DNA from: Sphingobacterium spiritivorum
Lineage (GTDB): Bacteria > Bacteroidota > Bacteroidia > Sphingobacteriales > Sphingobacteriaceae
Length of the DNA: 64,000 bases
Direction of reading: 5' to 3'
Assembly (NCBI RefSeq): GCF_016725325.1
Contig: NZ_CP068083.1
Location: forward strand, 3,720,001-3,784,000
Shown here: piece by piece, positions 7,222 to 48,146 of the stretch
Position numbering within the stretch: the stretch's first letter is position 1
Layout: each line of letters begins with the position of its first letter
Notes under the pieces: generated by a model
Databases searched by the model: none
Told to the model about the DNA's origin: nothing
The model's input: the letters and a program-made list of their open reading frames with translations, nothing else
Position numbers and translations under genes: made by a program

Positions 7222-8433
7222 TTATTGTTCAGCTATTGCTCTTATACATTCTTCTCTGATATACCAGATGTCCTCTATAGAATAAGGAATGTTATTTTGT
7301 GCTAACCATTCAGTAAGATATCTGCGATGAAAGTCTGTCTTATAATCGGTGATCTGATCGGCTGAAATATCAACTTCCATTAACAGATCCAACTCAAATT
7401 TTGTTTCATTAACTCCAATCCCTGTTGCGTCAACGATATAGTTATGAATTCGGAGATAATTATGTGCCTCCGGGATATATTCAAGACTATATTTATTTAA
7501 TATAGTTGCAACAGCAGGAGTATTTTTCTTATCCATCATAAAGATACCTAACATTAGTCTGATTTGGTTATGACCATTTTCATCAGCTAATCGTTTAAGC
7601 AGGGCGTGCTTTGTACTACAGGTTCCTGCAAATTCTTGAAATAGAATTACAGAATCTGATTTATCTGTATTTCTTTTGTAGGGAAGCTGAATTACCCATT
7701 TGACAGCAGATTCAAAATCAGCTATTCCCTTACTTAAAAACAAATCTGAAACCTTGCTGTTGCCTCTGATTTCAAAATTGAAAGGTTTGAAATATAATCT
7801 TCTGGAAAACAGGTTTGTTCTTTCATTATTCAATAAAGCATGTCCGCTTTTTTTATTGGTAAAGTAATTTAAAGATTTAATCAGATTCCGGACATGGAAA
7901 TTGGTTCCGAAATCGTCATTTTTACGACATTCATTATAGATGTCTAATGCTGTGCGAGTATTATCAAAATAGTCGTTATTTAGTAAATGGAGTATAAAAT
8001 CCTTTACTCTATCTAATGTGGACAAAAATTTAGTAGTATGAAGGGCACAGAGTTTCTCTTCTTCTATGAGCGTAAATGGATTTGATTTGCTTAACTGTTC
8101 ATTCCGGATTAGAATCTGAAAGGAGGTTTTCCTGTTTTCAGTCTGACTGACAGTTATCTTTAATTGGTAATTATCATGCTTTGTCACATCAGGGGTAAAT
8201 TTTTCTATACTTTCTCCAAATATAGATGCCAGATAATTGCTGTCAACAGGATCTATATGTGTAGTTTTCAGAGGATTTTCAGCATCTCTTATAAAAAAAT
8301 CATGTTTTCCCAGTAGAAATGAACATTCATACGCGGAATAGCCGATCTCTATCCGATAGGTATGAAACATGAAAATTTTTCGAAAAAGTATAGCAGGAAA
8401 TACCTGATCATGAGTTTGCTTAGTTTTGGGCAT
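7222..8433 (-). CDS. Uncharacterised protein with C-terminal transglutaminase-like Cys-His-Asp domain
   Basis: This 403-residue cytosolic-looking protein has no signal peptide. The C-terminal half carries FAGTCSTKHALLKRLADE with C272, PEAHNYL with H324 and YIVDATG with D335. This order and spacing is the catalytic triad layout of the transglutaminase-like/papain-type superfamily. The N-terminal 200 residues are not recognisable to me. A start at the ATG for residue 22 (8370) is possible and would begin at MFHTYRIEIG. The gene lies 31 bp downstream of an HTH protein gene on the same strand, so the pair is likely one unit. Its role (protease, amidase, or a ligand-binding regulatory domain) is open. 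Confidence 0.55.
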   Translation of the reverse strand: MPKTKQTHDQVFPAILFRKIFMFHTYRIEIGYSAYECSFLLGKHDFFIRDAENPLKTTHIDPVDSNYLASIFGESIEKFTPDVTKHDNYQLKITVSQTENRKTSFQILIRNEQLSKSNPFTLIEEEKLCALHTTKFLSTLDRVKDFILHLLNNDYFDNTRTALDIYNECRKNDDFGTNFHVRNLIKSLNYFTNKKSGHALLNNERTNLFSRRLYFKPFNFEIRGNSKVSDLFLSKGIADFESAVKWVIQLPYKRNTDKSDSVILFQEFAGTCSTKHALLKRLADENGHNQIRLMLGIFMMDKKNTPAVATILNKYSLEYIPEAHNYLRIHNYIVDATGIGVNETKFELDLLMEVDISADQITDYKTDFHRRYLTEWLAQNNIPYSIEDIWYIREECIRAIAEQ

Positions 8434-8464
8434 GTCTTTAATCCGATAAATCTAATATTATAAA

Positions 8465-9007
8465 TTATTGATGTCTACGGTAAATTGATTCTGTTTCACT
8501 TTTTCGCTCTAATTTATTCTTCTCAGTTGCTGTTTTGATAACAGCAGTAAAATCGTTGTTAGTCCAGTTTTTCCCGGAGTAAGCGCTACAATGAGCTGCT
8601 ATTTGAGCTACTGTATGCCAGTCGTTAAAAAATGGATCTTGTTTTTCTTCCAACAATATAAATATGGTTGAGGTTTGCGTAAGTTCTTTGGGTCTTTGAA
8701 CTACCTGTTTTTCTACCATCAATTCTTCTATAGGTTGTTCCGGATAAAATGTAAACAGTGAAAATTCTTCGATTATCCCCATTTCATGTGCGGTCTTTGT
8801 AAACAATTGCGCTATCTTATTTAAGTGTTTGTCTGTATATTTTTCAGTTCGAAAATTGTTTTCAATTATCCCTAAGGTGTTGCTGTCTGATCCAGGGCTG
8901 ATTTCCGAACTTACTTCCCTTTGTGTAAGTCCAAGTGTCAATCTCCACGATCTGACCATATTGATTGTAAAAAGAGCAACTGAAGAGATATATACCGGTT
9001 TTTTCAT
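8465..9007 (-). CDS. HTH (XRE-like) protein with a second C-terminal helical domain
   Basis: This 180-residue protein starts with a helix-turn-helix segment resembling XRE/Cro: NMVRSWRLTLGLTQREVSSEI, followed by TLGIIENNFRTEKYTDKHLNKIAQLF (residues about 17 to 69). This fits repressor-type DNA binding. The C-terminal part (DWHTVAQIAAHC, WTNNDFTAVIKTATEKNKLERKSE) could be a second winged or helical domain. It is the first gene of a two-gene minus-strand unit with the transglutaminase-like gene. The region in front of it is gene-free for about 700 bp up to susC, so it could regulate itself or susC. The HTH call is good; the target is unknown. Confidence 0.6.
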   Translation of the reverse strand: MKKPVYISSVALFTINMVRSWRLTLGLTQREVSSEISPGSDSNTLGIIENNFRTEKYTDKHLNKIAQLFTKTAHEMGIIEEFSLFTFYPEQPIEELMVEKQVVQRPKELTQTSTIFILLEEKQDPFFNDWHTVAQIAAHCSAYSGKNWTNNDFTAVIKTATEKNKLERKSETESIYRRHQ

Positions 9008-41900: not shown

Positions 41901-43388
41901 TTATTGTAGAGATATAACAGCGTCATGAAGTATGGATATACTCTCTTCCATTTCTGTTGTAGTAAAATGCCCGAACCCTAATCGGGCGGCTGTAAGTGAT
42001 GCATTTTGGTATAGTAAAGTGCGCGGGATAAAAAGATTGTTTCTGGCACAGGAACGGCTTAATTGCAGTAGATTGATCGGTTGTTTCCAGGTTGCCCATA
42101 CCGCAAGTCCTCCTGAAGGTTTTCTGAAATCCAGATATTCATGCAGCCGTTCTTCCAGAAGAGAGGTGAAATAATCTCTGCGTTCCTGATATATTTTAAG
42201 TGACTTTTTGAGGTAGCGATGAATATCTCCTTCTTCTATCATTTCACCAAGTACCTGCTCCATCATAATATCCCCTTGCCGGTCAATAATGCCCAGATGT
42301 TTTCGCATTTCAGTCATCAGATTTTCCGGAGCAACGATAAAACCTGTCCGGAATCCCGGTGCCAGAGATTTACCAAAAGAACCGATATAGACTACCATGC
42401 CATTAGTATCAGCACTCGCTAAGGGAAGTACCGGAGCTTTATCGTAGTGAAAGTCATAGTCATAATCGTCTTCCAGTATAATAAATCCAAATTGGGAGGC
42501 TAAATGCAGCAATTGGATACGACGCTCTGCACTTAGGGTGACTGTCGTTGGATAGTGGTGGTGCGGCGTGATATATAGCATACGCACCTGTTGTCGTTCA
42601 CATATTTCCCTGACAGCATCCACATCTATACCTTCTTCGTCTATAGGGACAGACATAATATGTGCTCCGGATTTCTGAAAGATCATATTGACCGAAAAAT
42701 AACTCATCTCACCCACTAATACGATTTCTCCAACGGATAACAGGATTTCAGAAGCAATGTACACACTCATTTCTGTGCTGCGAGTGATCAGGATATTATC
42801 TTTTGAAATATGCAGACCACGAGACAGATTGAGGTAATTGGATAAATTCTTTTTGAAGTATTCGCTTCCGTCATGGTTGTAATACCCTAATTTTTTACGG
42901 TTGCTCTTACGTTTCAGGTTGGCACTGTATAAACTGGAAAGATGATCTATCTGTGTTAGCCGTATATCGGGTATGCCGTCATTAAAGACATATTCACAGG
43001 CTGAATGTTCGAACGGGTTATCCAGCAACATCGATTTCCGGAATGAATATCCTGTAGAAGAAGGATATACGGCAAGTTGATTTTGTTGGGCAGACCGGAT
43101 TTTCTGAGGTTTATCATCGGACTTAGCCAGGACAAATGTACCTTGATTAGGACGCATTTCTACCCAGCCTTGTGCATGTAATTCGTCATAAGCTGCTACT
43201 ATGGTGTTCCTGTGTATGTGTAGTAACATGCCTAAAGTCCTTGTGCCGGGTAGTTTAGTTCCCGCTGTCAGAAAACCTCTTTGTATAGCATTTATCAGCT
43301 GATTGCTGATCTGTAAGTATACAGAAGTCTCTAAATTTCGATCAATTTCAATAAAACTTTGGTATGGAACACTAACCGGACTAGCCAT
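41901..43388 (-). CDS. MocR/GabR-type regulator (GntR DNA-binding domain fused to class I aminotransferase-like domain)
   Basis: This 495-residue regulator has an N-terminal winged HTH of the GntR type (residues about 18-90: YLQISNQLINAIQRGFLTAGTKLPGTRTLGMLLHIHRNTIVAAYDEL) and a fold-type I PLP-binding domain with YITPHHHYPTTVTLSAERR, LEDDYDYDFHYD and the PLP lysine in YIGSFGKSLAPGFRTGF. This architecture is that of GabR, PdxR and other MocR proteins, which sense amino compounds as PLP aldimines. It diverges from the biotin operon. Two TGGTAY repeats 34 bp apart span its first codons, so it probably controls itself and that operon. Confidence 0.92.
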   Translation of the reverse strand: MASPVSVPYQSFIEIDRNLETSVYLQISNQLINAIQRGFLTAGTKLPGTRTLGMLLHIHRNTIVAAYDELHAQGWVEMRPNQGTFVLAKSDDKPQKIRSAQQNQLAVYPSSTGYSFRKSMLLDNPFEHSACEYVFNDGIPDIRLTQIDHLSSLYSANLKRKSNRKKLGYYNHDGSEYFKKNLSNYLNLSRGLHISKDNILITRSTEMSVYIASEILLSVGEIVLVGEMSYFSVNMIFQKSGAHIMSVPIDEEGIDVDAVREICERQQVRMLYITPHHHYPTTVTLSAERRIQLLHLASQFGFIILEDDYDYDFHYDKAPVLPLASADTNGMVVYIGSFGKSLAPGFRTGFIVAPENLMTEMRKHLGIIDRQGDIMMEQVLGEMIEEGDIHRYLKKSLKIYQERRDYFTSLLEERLHEYLDFRKPSGGLAVWATWKQPINLLQLSRSCARNNLFIPRTLLYQNASLTAARLGFGHFTTTEMEESISILHDAVISLQ

Positions 43389-43405
43389 AATATAAAAACT
43401 GGTAC
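43360..43405. promoter_or_regulatory. GabR-like direct repeats between the MocR gene and the biotin operon
   Basis: TGGTAT at 43360-43365 and TGGTAC at 43400-43405 are direct repeats with exactly 34 bp between them. Their complements are ATACCA and GTACCA. B. subtilis GabR is known to bind two ATACCA direct repeats separated by 34 bp. The first copy lies inside the first codons of the regulator gene, and the second about 24 bp before the biotin operon -7 element. Confidence 0.6.
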
Positions 43406-43428
43406 ATATTTAATGTCCGGCAAGATAC

Positions 43429-43436
43429 TACATTTG
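43429..43436 (+). promoter_or_regulatory. Promoter -7 element of the biotin operon
   Basis: TACATTTG matches TAnnTTTG exactly. The ATG at 43458 follows 21 bp later, which leaves a short 5' leader and supports that start over the longer frame beginning at 43359. Confidence 0.65.
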
Positions 43437-43457: not shown

Positions 43458-44069
43458 ATGTACAATCTACTTCAACACATTGTGGATAATGATATGCTTC
43501 ATGCTAAATGGCTGAATACGCTTTCCTTTATGGAAAATGCAGGAGCGCGAAAAATATCTGCCTGTGAACATACAACAGATGTAAATCTGATACAACTAAA
43601 ACATGCCGCTGAAGAGCATCGGCATGCCTATTACCTCAAAAAACAAATTGCGAAGACCAATGTTGATACCTGTAATACATACAGGACTGATGAGCTTATT
43701 GCTTCAGCCTGTACACGTCATTATTTGCAGCAATTGGATATACATGCCTGTCGCTATCTTAAAAATACATTTGATTTAAGGGATAATGAACTCAAGTATG
43801 CGGCTTATTTGTTTGTAACCTATGCTATTGAAGTACGTGCAGATGACTTATATCCTATCTATCAACAGGTATTGGATGCATCGAAGAGTAAGGTCATGGT
43901 CAAATCTATTATTCTGGAAGAAGAGGGGCATCTGGAAGAGATGATCCATCAGCTCGAAGTCTTTGCGTCCGACTGGGAAGTACATGCAAAGAAGATACAG
44001 GATATGGAACAGCAATTATTCGAAGAATGGGTAACAGCGATAGCGCTGGAAGTAAAGCATGATAAATAA
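43458..44069 (+). CDS. Ferritin-like diiron protein, first gene of the biotin operon
   Basis: This 203-residue, all-helical protein carries the full six-ligand set of a ferritin-like carboxylate diiron site: E26 (SFMENAGARK), E53 and H56 (AAEEHRHAYY), E125 (TYAIEVRADD), E155 and H158 (LEEEGHLEEM). The two ExxH pairs sit in predicted helices 2 and 4. There is no signal peptide. The start follows a TACATTTG element; an in-frame ATG at 43359 would run into the divergent regulator. The last 11 bases overlap bioF, so the two are translationally coupled. Ferritin-like proteins can be oxygenases, oxidases or iron stores. Its place before bioF makes a role in biotin precursor supply a good hypothesis, but no function is proven. 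Confidence 0.75.
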   Translation: MYNLLQHIVDNDMLHAKWLNTLSFMENAGARKISACEHTTDVNLIQLKHAAEEHRHAYYLKKQIAKTNVDTCNTYRTDELIASACTRHYLQQLDIHACRYLKNTFDLRDNELKYAAYLFVTYAIEVRADDLYPIYQQVLDASKSKVMVKSIILEEEGHLEEMIHQLEVFASDWEVHAKKIQDMEQQLFEEWVTAIALEVKHDK

Positions 44070-45171
44070 TCTTTCGCAACTTCTGAACGATAAGCTGGAG
44101 TTAAGAGCAGATAAGGGTAATCTAAGGAGTTTAAAGATTCCAGAGCAGGGAATTGATTTTTTTTCCAATGATTATCTGGGTTTGGCTCGGAATCCTGCAT
44201 TTCATAAACAACTGTCAGAAGAGATACATGCTGATCCGTCAATTCTCGGAGGCGCTACAGGATCCAGGCTGATCAGCGGTAATTCTGTTGAGAAAATGCG
44301 TGCAGAACAGGAAATTGCTGTATTTCACGGATATCCGGCAAGTCTGTTGTTTGCCTCCGGTTATATGGCCAATCTGGCGCTACTGTCTGCTTTACCTGGT
44401 CGGGGAGATACCATTATTATGGACGAACTGATTCATAGATCCGTGCATGACGGAGCGGCTTTATCTGCAGCCCAAAAATGGAAATTCAGACATAACGATC
44501 TGAATAGCCTGGAGGATAAGCTGCGGAGAGCCAGCGGTCAGATTTACGTCGTGGTGGAGAGTTTATACTCCATGGATGGTGATTTTGCTTCTTTGAATGA
44601 GCTTGTTGTGTTGACCCGACGATACAATGCTGCGCTTATTGTAGACGAGGCACACGCATTTGGTGTCTTTGGATATGGTCTGGTACACCATTATGGTTTA
44701 CAGAAGCACGTATTTGCAACGGTGATTACCTATGGAAAGGCTTTAGGAGCACATGGTGCAGCTGTATTAGGGGAGGAGTTGCTCAAATCTTACCTTGTCA
44801 ATTTTGCATCTGCCTTTATCTATAGTACTGCATGTCCGGATCTGTTTGCTCGTCATATACGATTGGGGTATGCGTTTTTGAATGAACATTCTGAACTTTC
44901 AGCTCAATTGAAAAGACGTATAGCTTATTTCAGGCAGAAGAAGATTTCTTCCGCTTCAGATCCGCTGAGTCCTGTTCAGGCTGTTATCATTCCGCAGCAT
45001 GAAGTCTTGATCCATCTGCAGCAACAGCTCCAGAAGAACGGACTACAGGTCTATGCTATTTATAGTCCTACCGTAAGGGAAGGGCAGGAGCGTCTGCGTA
45101 TCTGTCTGCATCAGTATAATACGGAAGAAGAGATAGATGCGCTGACCGCAGAAATTAATAGTGTACTATAA
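44059..45171 (+). CDS. bioF: 8-amino-7-oxononanoate synthase (KAPA synthase)
   Basis: This 370-residue PLP enzyme of the alpha-oxoamine synthase family condenses pimeloyl-thioester with L-alanine to give KAPA. Key segments are DFFSNDYLGLA, GGATGSRLISGNS, the acidic residue in LIVDEAHAFGVFG and the PLP lysine in TYGKALGAHGAAVLG. The size is normal. The related AKB ligase and serine palmitoyltransferase share the fold, but the position upstream of bioD, bioB and bioA settles the role. It overlaps the ferritin-like gene by 11 bp. Confidence 0.93.
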   Translation: MINNLSQLLNDKLELRADKGNLRSLKIPEQGIDFFSNDYLGLARNPAFHKQLSEEIHADPSILGGATGSRLISGNSVEKMRAEQEIAVFHGYPASLLFASGYMANLALLSALPGRGDTIIMDELIHRSVHDGAALSAAQKWKFRHNDLNSLEDKLRRASGQIYVVVESLYSMDGDFASLNELVVLTRRYNAALIVDEAHAFGVFGYGLVHHYGLQKHVFATVITYGKALGAHGAAVLGEELLKSYLVNFASAFIYSTACPDLFARHIRLGYAFLNEHSELSAQLKRRIAYFRQKKISSASDPLSPVQAVIIPQHEVLIHLQQQLQKNGLQVYAIYSPTVREGQERLRICLHQYNTEEEIDALTAEINSVL

Positions 45172-45210
45172 GATAATACTGAGCAATTTAAATAAAAGAG
45201 CATTTTCAGA

Positions 45211-45831
45211 ATGAAGCAACAGATTTTTATTAGTGGAATCGGAACAGGTATAGGTAAGACTATTTGCTCAGCTGTATTGGTTAGATTATGGGGTGCCGAT
45301 TATTGGAAACCTATACAATCCGGTGATCTCCATCATTCAGACAGCATGCTCGTAAGTGAACTGACTGGTCGCGATACTGTTATTCACCCCGAGCGTTTTA
45401 AGCTAAAATTAGCTGTTTCTCCTCATGAATCAGCTGCTGCTGAAAATTTACAGATAACATTAGAAGATTTCAAACTTCCGGTTACTCCCCGGTCATTGGT
45501 GATAGAAGGTGCAGGCGGGTTGTTTGTTCCGGTCAATGAGGAAGCGTTTATCATTGATCTGATTTCAAAATTATCCATTCCGGCTGCACTTGTTGTCAGG
45601 GATTACCTCGGTTGTATCAATCACAGTTTGCTTTCTATCGCAGCACTCCGGCAGCGTCATATTCCACTTCGTTATCTTATACTCAACGGGTCATTCAATT
45701 CGCATAGCGAAAGGATTATCCATAAAGCAGTAGATTCATCAACAGCCATTTTACGTATACCGGACCTCCAATCTTTAAGTTCTCAGGAACTGGACAGCGT
45801 GTGTCGGGATCTGGTTGAACAGATCACATAG
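45211..45831 (+). CDS. bioD: Dethiobiotin synthetase
   Basis: This 206-residue ATP-dependent enzyme closes the ureido ring of dethiobiotin from DAPA and CO2. It has the P-loop GIGTGIGKT at the N terminus, YWKPIQSGD, the Mg-binding EGAGGLFVPVNE segment and an LVVRDYLGCINHSLLS region that corresponds to the substrate loop. It is slightly shorter than E. coli BioD (about 225 residues). It is the third gene of the operon, 39 bp after bioF. Confidence 0.93.
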   Translation: MKQQIFISGIGTGIGKTICSAVLVRLWGADYWKPIQSGDLHHSDSMLVSELTGRDTVIHPERFKLKLAVSPHESAAAENLQITLEDFKLPVTPRSLVIEGAGGLFVPVNEEAFIIDLISKLSIPAALVVRDYLGCINHSLLSIAALRQRHIPLRYLILNGSFNSHSERIIHKAVDSSTAILRIPDLQSLSSQELDSVCRDLVEQIT

Positions 45832-45885
45832 TTATAAGGTACAATAGATATACCGTACCACCGAAATATTAAAAAATACAAATTT

Positions 45886-46890
45886 ATGAGAAGAATTATG
45901 AATACAGCAATCAGAACCAACTGGACGAAAGAAGAGATTCAGGAAATTTACGATCAGCCGTTGCTGGAATTGGTCTATCGTGCAGCTACCGTACACAGAG
46001 AATGGCACCGTGCATCAGAAGTACAGGTATGTACCTTATTATCTGTCAAAACCGGAGGCTGTCCTGAAGATTGTTCCTATTGCGGACAGGCTGCCCGATA
46101 TCATACGGACATCAAGGTGCAAGCTTTGTTGCCGACGGAGACCGTTATTGCCCATGCACAGAAAGCCAAAGATTCGGGTTCTACCCGCTTTTGTATGGCT
46201 GCTGCGTGGAGAGAGGTTCGTGACAACCGTGATTTTGACCGGGTTATCGATATGGTAAAGGGTGTAAATGACCTGGGGCTTGAGGTCTGTTGTACACTGG
46301 GTATGTTGACTGAAGAGCAGGCTGTCCGGTTAAGGGACGCAGGTTTGCATGCTTACAATCATAATCTGGATACTTCAGAGCAGTATTATGAGGAGATTAT
46401 CTCGACACGTAAGTTTGATAACCGTATCAATACAATCAACCATGTGCGTAAAGCAGGTATTACTGTTTGTTCGGGGGGGATTATAGGCCTTGGAGAAACC
46501 CATAAAGATCGTATTTCTATGTTACTGACATTGGCTACTATGCCAAAGCATCCTGAATCTGTTCCGGTCAATGCATTGGCAAGGGTTAAAGGAACACCAT
46601 TAGAACATAATCCTAAAGTTGATATATGGGATATGGTACGTATGATAGCTACAGCCCGTATTGTAATGCCGGCATCCGTTGTGCGTCTTAGTGCCGGACG
46701 TATCGAGATGACAGAGACGGAGCAAGCCTGGTGTTTTATGGCGGGTGCCAATTCTATTTTTACAGGAGAACACGAAACCTTGCTTGTAACGCCCAATCCG
46801 GGAGTATCCGAGGATATGCAGATGTTCCGGAACCTGGGACTGAAACCTATGGAAAACAAAAAAAGCGAAAGCTCATGTCAGGTACATTAA
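45886..46890 (+). CDS. bioB: Biotin synthase
   Basis: This 334-residue radical SAM enzyme inserts sulfur into dethiobiotin. The [4Fe-4S]-SAM motif is CPEDCSYC within [16 protein letters not shown]. Cysteines and arginine that hold the [2Fe-2S] sulfur donor are seen in FCMAAAW, EVCCTLG and [25 protein letters not shown] is also diagnostic. ATG codons at 45886 and 45901 are possible starts. The end overlaps bioA by 16 bp. Confidence 0.97.
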
Positions 46891-48146
46891 AAGAGCGTGA
46901 CAGAAAGGTTAACTGGCATCCGTATACGCAGATGAAAGGTGCAGAAGACGCTATACCCATTGTCCGTGGAAACGGAGCATATCTTTACGACGATAAAGGC
47001 AATCGTTATATTGATGCCGTTTCTTCCTGGTGGGTGACTTTGCACGGGCATGCTCATCCTTATATTGCTGAGCGTGTCTCTGAGCAGTTACTTACACTAG
47101 AGCAAGTGATATTTGCCGGATTTACGCATGAACCAGCGATCAGACTTTCTGAAAATCTGCTCAGGCTGCTTCCGTCCACTCAGCAGAAAGTGTTTTATAC
47201 GGATAATGGCTCTACTGCAATAGAAGTTGCACTCAAAATATGTATACAGTATCACTATAACCAAGATCGGAAACGATCTAAAATACTGGCTTTTAAGAAT
47301 TCATATCATGGAGATACATTTGGAGCTATGTCTATTAGCGGAAGGGGGGTATGGACAGCTCCCTTTGCAGATATGCTCTTTGAGGTTATCTTTATTGATG
47401 TTCCCACTCAAGCAAATATAAACGTACTGTTTGGCATTATAGACCGGTATGCAGATGAGCTGGCTTGTTTTGTTTATGAACCGCTTGTGCAGGGAGCTGC
47501 AGGAATGTTAATGCATAGACCGGAGGATTTGAGTATGCTGATGGATTATTGCCGTAGCAAAGGTATATTGCTGATACAGGATGAAATATTTGTAGGTTTT
47601 GGTCGTACAGGACGTCTGTTTGCTGCGGATTATTTGTCTGCATATCCCGATGTTATGTGTTTCTCTAAAGGGCTGACCGGAGGGACTATGCCTTTAGGGG
47701 TGACGACCTGTTCAGATGCGATATATGAAGCATTTTATTCTGATGATAAGAAAAAGGCACTTTTTCATGGTCATTCTTTTACAGCCAGTCCTCTGGCCTG
47801 TACTGCGGCTTTAGCAAGTATGGAACTTCTGTTGCAAGCGCATACGCTGGAGAATATTCAACGGATAGTATTGCAGCATGAACGCTTTGCTATGGAGTTA
47901 AAATCGCATCCTCAGGTGGTAGTTGTCAGACAGCAGGGAACTATTCTGGCGTTAGAATGGAGAACAGGAGAAGAAACTTCCTATTTCAGCGATATGCACG
48001 AAAAACTGTATCCTTATTTTCTAAACAAAGGGATTCTGCTTCGCCCTTTGGGGAATATTATTTATCTGGTTCCTCCATATTGCATAGCAGATGAAGATCT
48101 GGCTTATATCTATGAAACGATATTGGAGGCCTTAGACTCTTTATAA
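46875..48146 (+). CDS. bioA: Adenosylmethionine-8-amino-7-oxononanoate aminotransferase (DAPA aminotransferase)
   Basis: This 423-residue class III PLP aminotransferase converts KAPA to DAPA using SAM as amino donor. Diagnostic motifs are [12 protein letters not shown] at the start, [43 protein letters not shown] and the PLP lysine in [17 protein letters not shown] start at the ATG at 46875, because the longer frame from 46731 would read through the middle of bioB. It is the last gene of the operon. I see no strong terminator directly after it. Confidence 0.95.

Follow-up and report, generated by a model that had tools for sequence, protein, structure and literature searches.

A probable BioE-type diiron oxygenase gene at the head of a Sphingobacterium spiritivorum biotin operon

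Results and Discussion

The biotin operon and its upstream region

The window, by which we mean the whole 64,000-nucleotide stretch that was analysed, carries five biotin genes in a single run on the plus strand. The first of these, bioE (43458..44069), encodes a predicted ferritin-like diiron oxygenase of 203 residues, an assignment based on the open reading frame, invariant metal ligands, agreement with the residue numbers of Elizabethkingia meningoseptica BioE (EmBioE) and a structural model. It overlaps by 11 bp with bioF (8-amino-7-oxononanoate synthase, 44059..45171), which is followed by bioD (dethiobiotin synthase, 45211..45831), bioB (biotin synthase, 45886..46890) and bioA (DAPA aminotransferase, 46875..48146). 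Curated NCBIfam cut-offs were exceeded by bioD (TIGR00347), bioB (TIGR00433) and bioA (TIGR00508); for bioF the best family was TIGR00858, at an E value of 6e-93 and 311.5 bits versus a cut-off of 426.45. Since there is no other long open reading frame on the plus strand of the operon, bioC, bioH, bioG, bioI and bioW are missing from it. The original prediction, made without database searches, had described this gene content, the 11-bp overlap and the ligand set E26, E53xxH56, E125 and E155xxH158, and our coordinates and residue positions agree with it throughout. The order E-F-D-B-A was retained in 15 of 15 full copies of the operon in the genus (the window counted in), and for this reason the arrangement is not attributable to chance.

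Divergent to the operon is bioL (41901..43388, minus strand), a MocR-type regulator gene that belongs to the system and on which the original prediction was silent. Its product has R50 in the HTH domain and the PLP lysine K340 at the numbers published for EmBioL (partial text of PMC12915131), and it is divergent to bioE in 12 of the 15 same-genus copies. Between and partly within these genes lies an operator-like element, CGGACTA-N16-CTGG (43377..43402, plus strand), a predicted BioL site whose left half falls inside the first bioL codons and which has no other match in the 64 kb of the window. A second operator-like pair, CTGG ... TCCGGC (43399..43421, plus strand), is conserved in most rows of an alignment of the upstream regions of bioE from 27 loci and is lost in the three same-genus loci where bioL is not adjacent; matched loosely, this pair is frequent elsewhere in the window. 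Most rows of the same alignment also conserve a promoter-like sequence, TACATTTG (43429..43436, plus strand), which fits the Bacteroidota promoter element TAnnTTTG.

Active site, fold and probable reaction

Published information on BioE came from PMC12915131, the one BioE study recognised in the literature listings, in partial extent. According to that partial text, BioE cuts long-chain acyl-ACP or acyl-CoA between C7 and C8 to yield pimeloyl-ACP or pimeloyl-CoA, under the MocR repressor BioL, which is reported to sense AON. The same text gives Sphingobacteriaceae among the BioE-bearing groups and uses a search rule that requires, relative to EmBioE, >40% identity and 85% coverage. Our comparison with EmBioE rests on the residue numbers printed there together with homologues from Chryseobacterium, a genus in which BioE has been reported; these are ~63–70% identical to the window protein.

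The window ligands E26, E53, H56, E125, E155 and H158 carry exactly the published EmBioE numbers (PMC12915131, in part). Ligand loss in homologues, which would have counted against the original prediction, was seen in none of the 107 homologue rows (103 distinct sequences, with at least two genomes entered twice, L005/L059 and L007/L101), whether linked to bioF or not. All six residues of the EmBioE inhibitor-contact pocket (L22, M25, K32, Y117, I124 and L131) are identical in the window, as are nine of the 11 residues in the channel list of Chlamydia psittaci BioE (CpBioE) when shifted by 15, an offset that is assumed beyond position 158; the two that differ are M25 and E190. Of the EmBioE residues facing CoA (F24, R31, K32, K46, R87, Q88 and H91), four of seven are identical and three are replaced (K46 by Q, Q88 by H and H91 by Q), and Q occupies position 46 in 100 of the 107 rows. 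The use of acyl-CoA by the window protein is unsure because of these three differences. CpBioE likewise differs at this patch, yet is a BioE (PMC12915131, in part).

The model of the window protein (pLDDT 91.4, pTM 0.89) has a ferritin-like four-helix diiron fold. The three best VIA-align matches among solved structures were all aldehyde-deformylating oxygenases (Z 16.2 to 14.9), the first aligning over 172 residues at 2.4 A and 13% identity, values to be read knowing that helical models may reach a best Z of ~14 without true kinship. Foldseek returned nothing at E <= 0.001, and its top ranks, F-BAR proteins and AetD, had E > 0.1 and were judged uninformative. The protein could not be placed credibly in any Pfam or NCBIfam family (lowest E values 0.25 and 0.41, respectively), the Pfam scan gave no P450 match, and a profile search against solved structures by sequence found none close, the best being a bacterioferritin at E 0.053. 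No relatives were found in the viral contigs and plasmids searched.

The window thus shares active-site residues, regulator and operon with the published BioE systems, to which can be added the complementarity with BioC and BioG described below, and on this sequence evidence we assign the 203-residue protein with high confidence as BioE, the diiron oxygenase that provides biotin synthesis with its pimeloyl thioester. We infer its substrate, product and regulation from published relatives. Following the published model (PMC12915131, in part), long-chain acyl-ACP, or acyl-CoA, would bind BioE with its acyl chain in a hydrophobic channel reaching the diiron site, and the enzyme, with O2 and electrons, would cleave the chain at C7/C8 to give pimeloyl-ACP or pimeloyl-CoA and a shorter fatty acid. 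BioF, BioA, BioD and BioB would then complete biotin, with the operon presumably restrained by the divergent repressor BioL.

A relative of BioE with a shifted reaction, which desaturates or hydroxylates acyl-ACP and leaves the cut to a second enzyme, would fit the structural resemblance to aldehyde-deformylating oxygenases, which use fatty aldehydes, and the desaturation and hydroxylation steps proposed by the BioE authors (PMC12915131, in part). We consider it very unlikely, given that all ligands and the named pocket residues are retained, that the operon has no additional oxidative gene and that CpBioE with chemical electron donors produced pimeloyl-ACP and undecanoic acid in vitro (same source).

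Linkage of bioE and distribution of pimeloyl routes

Linkage of bioE to biotin genes was found in 78 of 80 named loci. Where bioF does not follow, bioE adjoins bioB in 14 Chitinophaga loci and bioA in four genomes of the same family, and in two Pedobacter loci it is distant from all bio genes. BioA above the cut-off and BioF-type genes were present in all 22 genomes searched, namely the 14 of Chitinophaga, the four with adjacent bioA, three in which bioE is unlinked or linked in another way, and the genome of the window itself. A true BioF is therefore likely, not proven, in the Chitinophaga BioE genomes, because the BioF profile also matches paralogues.

BioC together with BioH or BioG elsewhere in the genome would have told against the original prediction. 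No BioC was found there, the best profile match reaching 75.9 bits where the cut-off is 184.95; BioG and BioW profiles had no match. Among 60 same-genus genomes, BioE with the full operon occurred in 15, BioC and BioG occurred together in 10 with no overlap with BioE, and BioW occurred in none. Across a draw of 395 genomes from the phylum, BioE was identified in 14, each of which also had BioB, and BioC at E <= 1e-38 was found in 0 of these 14 versus 118 of the 381 others. BioC was also absent, at E <= 1e-30, from all 50 named BioE genomes searched. The absence of BioC is weak evidence by itself because, of the 193 BioB-positive genomes of the draw, at least 61 lacked both BioC and BioE by the thresholds applied. 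In a midpoint-rooted tree of 41 of the 107 rows, the same-genus BioE proteins account for five label changes, two of them forced by well-supported branches, a pattern suggestive of horizontal transfer.

These distributions bear on the alternative raised in the original prediction, an accessory role in iron or oxygen handling for BioB, which we extend to protection of BioB and to a pimeloyl supply from an unseen gene elsewhere. Ferritin-like folds are frequent in iron storage, and the direct adjacency of bioE and bioB in Chitinophaga would suit such a role. On the other side, published relatives complement E. coli bioH and bioC mutants, which points to pimeloyl supply (PMC12915131, in part). 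Moreover, BioE does not track BioB: 10 of the 43 BioB-positive genomes of the genus have BioC and BioG without BioE, and a further 18 have bioB, without bioF, bioA or bioD nearby, and lack BioC, BioG and BioE alike. We therefore disfavour the accessory role and regard it as highly improbable. A MiaE-type tRNA-modifying hydroxylase, similar in length and ferritin-like ligand pattern and present in the operon by chance, is scarcely credible given the biotin-gene linkage described above. The Pfam scan had no PF06175 match, and the one MiaE match in the genome (154 bits) is another gene, at 1.81 Mb.

Operator-like elements ahead of biotin genes

In 74 of the 80 named loci the operator-like element lies no more than 140 bp ahead of bioE, the exceptions being L071, L095, L110, L111, L112 and L114; the count was 75 with a longer stretch scanned in three loci. 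All 14 of the other same-genus loci have it at this distance too. It also stands ahead of bioB in all 20 same-genus loci that lack BioE, a count that is partly fitted because the pattern, built from bioE promoters, was loosened after these bioB regions had been viewed; the stricter CGGACTA-N16-YGG is present in 18 of the 20. Its occurrence ahead of bioB in these loci is possibly new. In 25 loci of split-up bio genes from other genera there were two matches, both intragenic, and no bio gene had a match upstream of it. We tentatively suggest, as a possibility somewhat short of an even chance, that one MocR-type operator, CGGAC[CT]A-N16-[CT][GC]G, controls the biotin genes of the genus whatever the source of pimeloyl, lying ahead of bioE in BioE operons, ahead of bioB where the operon is of the BioC/BioG kind, and ahead of bioB genes that stand alone. 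No gene making AON was seen near the solitary bioB genes, and so a BioL-type regulator there would need to read another signal, such as dethiobiotin or biotin.

Significance

The first seven carbons of biotin are supplied by several unrelated routes, and the textbook route is missing in many Bacteroidota; BioE is an oxygen-dependent enzyme that closes this gap in the genomes carrying it. Our survey gives independent genomic support in that, inside a single genus, BioE and BioC/BioG are mutually exclusive, and that bioE in most genera keeps company with some biotin gene even after the operon has broken up. The element CGGACTA-N16-CTGG is a testable candidate operator for BioL. The original prediction of a non-haem diiron enzyme for pimeloyl supply, BioI-like with a different fold, coincides with the function published for BioE of Elizabethkingia and C. 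psittaci (PMC12915131, in part). It was almost certainly right but not new, as BioE was described in 2025, and is an example of correct functional inference from sequence alone. The founding report is that of Xu et al. (PNAS 2025). The available part of PMC13336041 treats BioE solely by citing the founding PNAS paper, and the whole word BioE is absent from PMC11089781.

Comparison with known systems

The closest parallels are in the partial text of PMC12915131. The window protein and EmBioE have in common the six ligand numbers, the six inhibitor-contact residues, linkage to bioF, bioD, bioB and bioA, and a MocR-type BioL with R50 and K340; they differ at CoA-facing positions 46, 88 and 91, and Elizabethkingia has bioEFD and bioBA under separate promoters, whereas the window has one run. 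CpBioE has the ligand numbers of the window at a constant offset of 15 and, by orthology, probably the same type of reaction, but it is reported as monomeric and ACP-only, it reportedly has Y103 and D106 where the window has H88 and Q91 (the same positions by offset), and Chlamydia lacks the BioL that the window has. The aldehyde-deformylating oxygenase of cyanobacterial type is, like BioE, a ferritin-like diiron enzyme with fatty-acyl substrates, but it is 13% identical over the alignment, deformylates fatty aldehydes and has no link to biotin. BioI of Bacillus is a haem enzyme, a cytochrome P450 of another fold that is not homologous to BioE. BioC and BioG, of the methyl-ester route, are unrelated to BioE and never accompany it in the sets tested; in sister genomes within the genus they take the metabolic role of BioE.

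Organization of the biotin operon in the window

All five genes of the original prediction were confirmed on the forward strand: bioE, an ORF at 43458-44069, followed by bioF (44059-45171, with the predicted 11-bp overlap), bioD (45211-45831), bioB (45886-46890) and bioA (46875-48146). The MocR-type regulator gene bioL (41901-43388) is on the opposite strand, pointing away from the operon. Upstream of bioE are an operator-like element, CGGACTA-N16-CTGG (43377-43402; its single match in the whole window), a second pair, CTGG/CCGG (ending at 43421), and TACATTTG (43429-43436). Of 80 named loci (the best 80 of 275 relatives), 74 carry the first element no more than 140 bp upstream of bioE, as do all 14 other Sphingobacterium loci. 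Loci of the genus without an adjacent bioL (L005, L006, L007 and L116) keep this element and have lost the second CCGG half.

Ligand conservation and fold of BioE

Neither Pfam nor NCBIfam gave a credible match to the window BioE. Loss of the diiron ligands in homologues still linked to bioF had been named as a finding that would speak against the prediction, and none was observed, all six ligands being invariant in 107/107 homologue rows (103 distinct sequences). The top VIA-align matches of an AlphaFold2 model built from 30 sequences (pLDDT 91.4) were aldehyde-deformylating oxygenases (best Z 16.2), on a scale where unrelated helical models can reach ~14, and plain Foldseek gave no match to the model at E ≤ 0.001.

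Distribution within Sphingobacterium

Among 60 genomes of the genus, the window's own included, 15 encode a full BioE, each with the order bioE-bioF-bioD-bioB-bioA, and bioL is divergent in 12 of these loci. One more genome (G034) retains a remnant of the operon, in which an N-terminal bioE fragment adjoins a C-terminal bioB fragment (L017:5633-5950). BioC and BioG were both above cut-off in the same 10 genomes, none of which has BioE (two of these BioC loci were inspected closely), and BioW was found in 0/60. BioB was above cut-off in 43 genomes; in the other 18 of these, the 12-17 kb examined around bioB contain none of bioF, bioA and bioD.

In a tree of 41 sequences the BioE proteins of the genus do not form one group, the window copy and its nearest relative standing apart from the other sets, a pattern that suggests horizontal transfer of the operon. 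Two genomes of the genus have BioE identical to that of Sphingobacterium lumbrici and S. faecium, which points to Sphingobacterium as the genus of the host.

The operator-like element at loci without BioE

A relaxed 26-bp element, CGGAC[CT]A-N16-[CT][GC]G, occurs once per locus, upstream of bioB, in 20/20 BioE-less loci of the genus (18 with a solitary bioB and two of the BioC type), with no further match in their 668,038 strand-bases; the pattern was relaxed only once these 20 upstream regions had been seen, and the strict form is present in 18. Some of these loci keep an adjacent BioL-like regulator (54% identity in L029, 60% in L035, ~39% in others). In Pedobacter and a genus of the same family, none of the dispersed bio genes inspected was preceded by the element.

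BioC and the neighbors of bioE beyond the genus

The proposed check of BioE-carrying genomes for missing BioC agreed with the prediction: BioC was absent from all 50 named genomes searched (E ≤ 1e-30) and, in a sample of 395 genomes of the phylum, from all 14 with BioE (E ≤ 1e-38; BioB in 14/14), versus its presence in 118 of the remaining 381. Among the 193 genomes of this sample with BioB, at least 61 have neither protein, so the absence of BioC alone is no sign of BioE.

Among the best 80 of the 275 relatives, bioF directly follows bioE in 64 loci, 14 loci (all Chitinophaga) have a bioE-bioB pair and two (both Pedobacter) have bioE alone. In five genomes of the same family, bioE adjoins bioA in four and is tail-to-tail with bioF in one. 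BioA was above cut-off in all 22 BioE genomes searched (14 Chitinophaga, two Pedobacter, these five and the window's), and all 22 have BioF-type genes, every one, like the window's, under the family cut-off and with paralogues among them. In all 14 Chitinophaga loci (L038 and 13 others) bioL accompanies the pair; where inspected, bioA (3 loci) and bioF-type genes (5 loci) lie elsewhere in the genome and are not preceded by the operator-like element. The Pedobacter bioE (L111 and L112, near 8001-8603) is away from other bio genes, between genes for a lipoyl-domain (E2-like) acyltransferase and a thioredoxin-like protein, as judged by eye from protein starts; these neighbors are a possible hint to the electron donor.

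Comparison with published BioE

The discovery of BioE is already in print, the founding report reportedly being that of Xu et al. (PNAS 2025, PMC12704756). In PMC12915131, BioE of Elizabethkingia and Chlamydia is described as a ferritin-like diiron oxygenase that cuts C7-C8 of long-chain acyl groups, is compared with aldehyde-deformylating oxygenases also, and is placed under the MocR repressor BioL, whose reported signal is AON; Sphingobacteriaceae are named among the carriers of BioE. The proposal of a non-haem diiron enzyme supplying pimeloyl is supported by this published function and by the matching ligands and regulator, and the window protein is very probably a BioE. All six ligands published there for Elizabethkingia meningoseptica BioE (E26, E53, H56, E125, E155 and H158) have exactly equal residue numbers in the window protein, as do BioL residues R50 and K340 in the window regulator. 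Of the other residues given there, the CoA-facing patch is shared at four of seven positions (Q46, H88 and Q91 differ), and the inhibitor-contact pocket is present in full (6/6).
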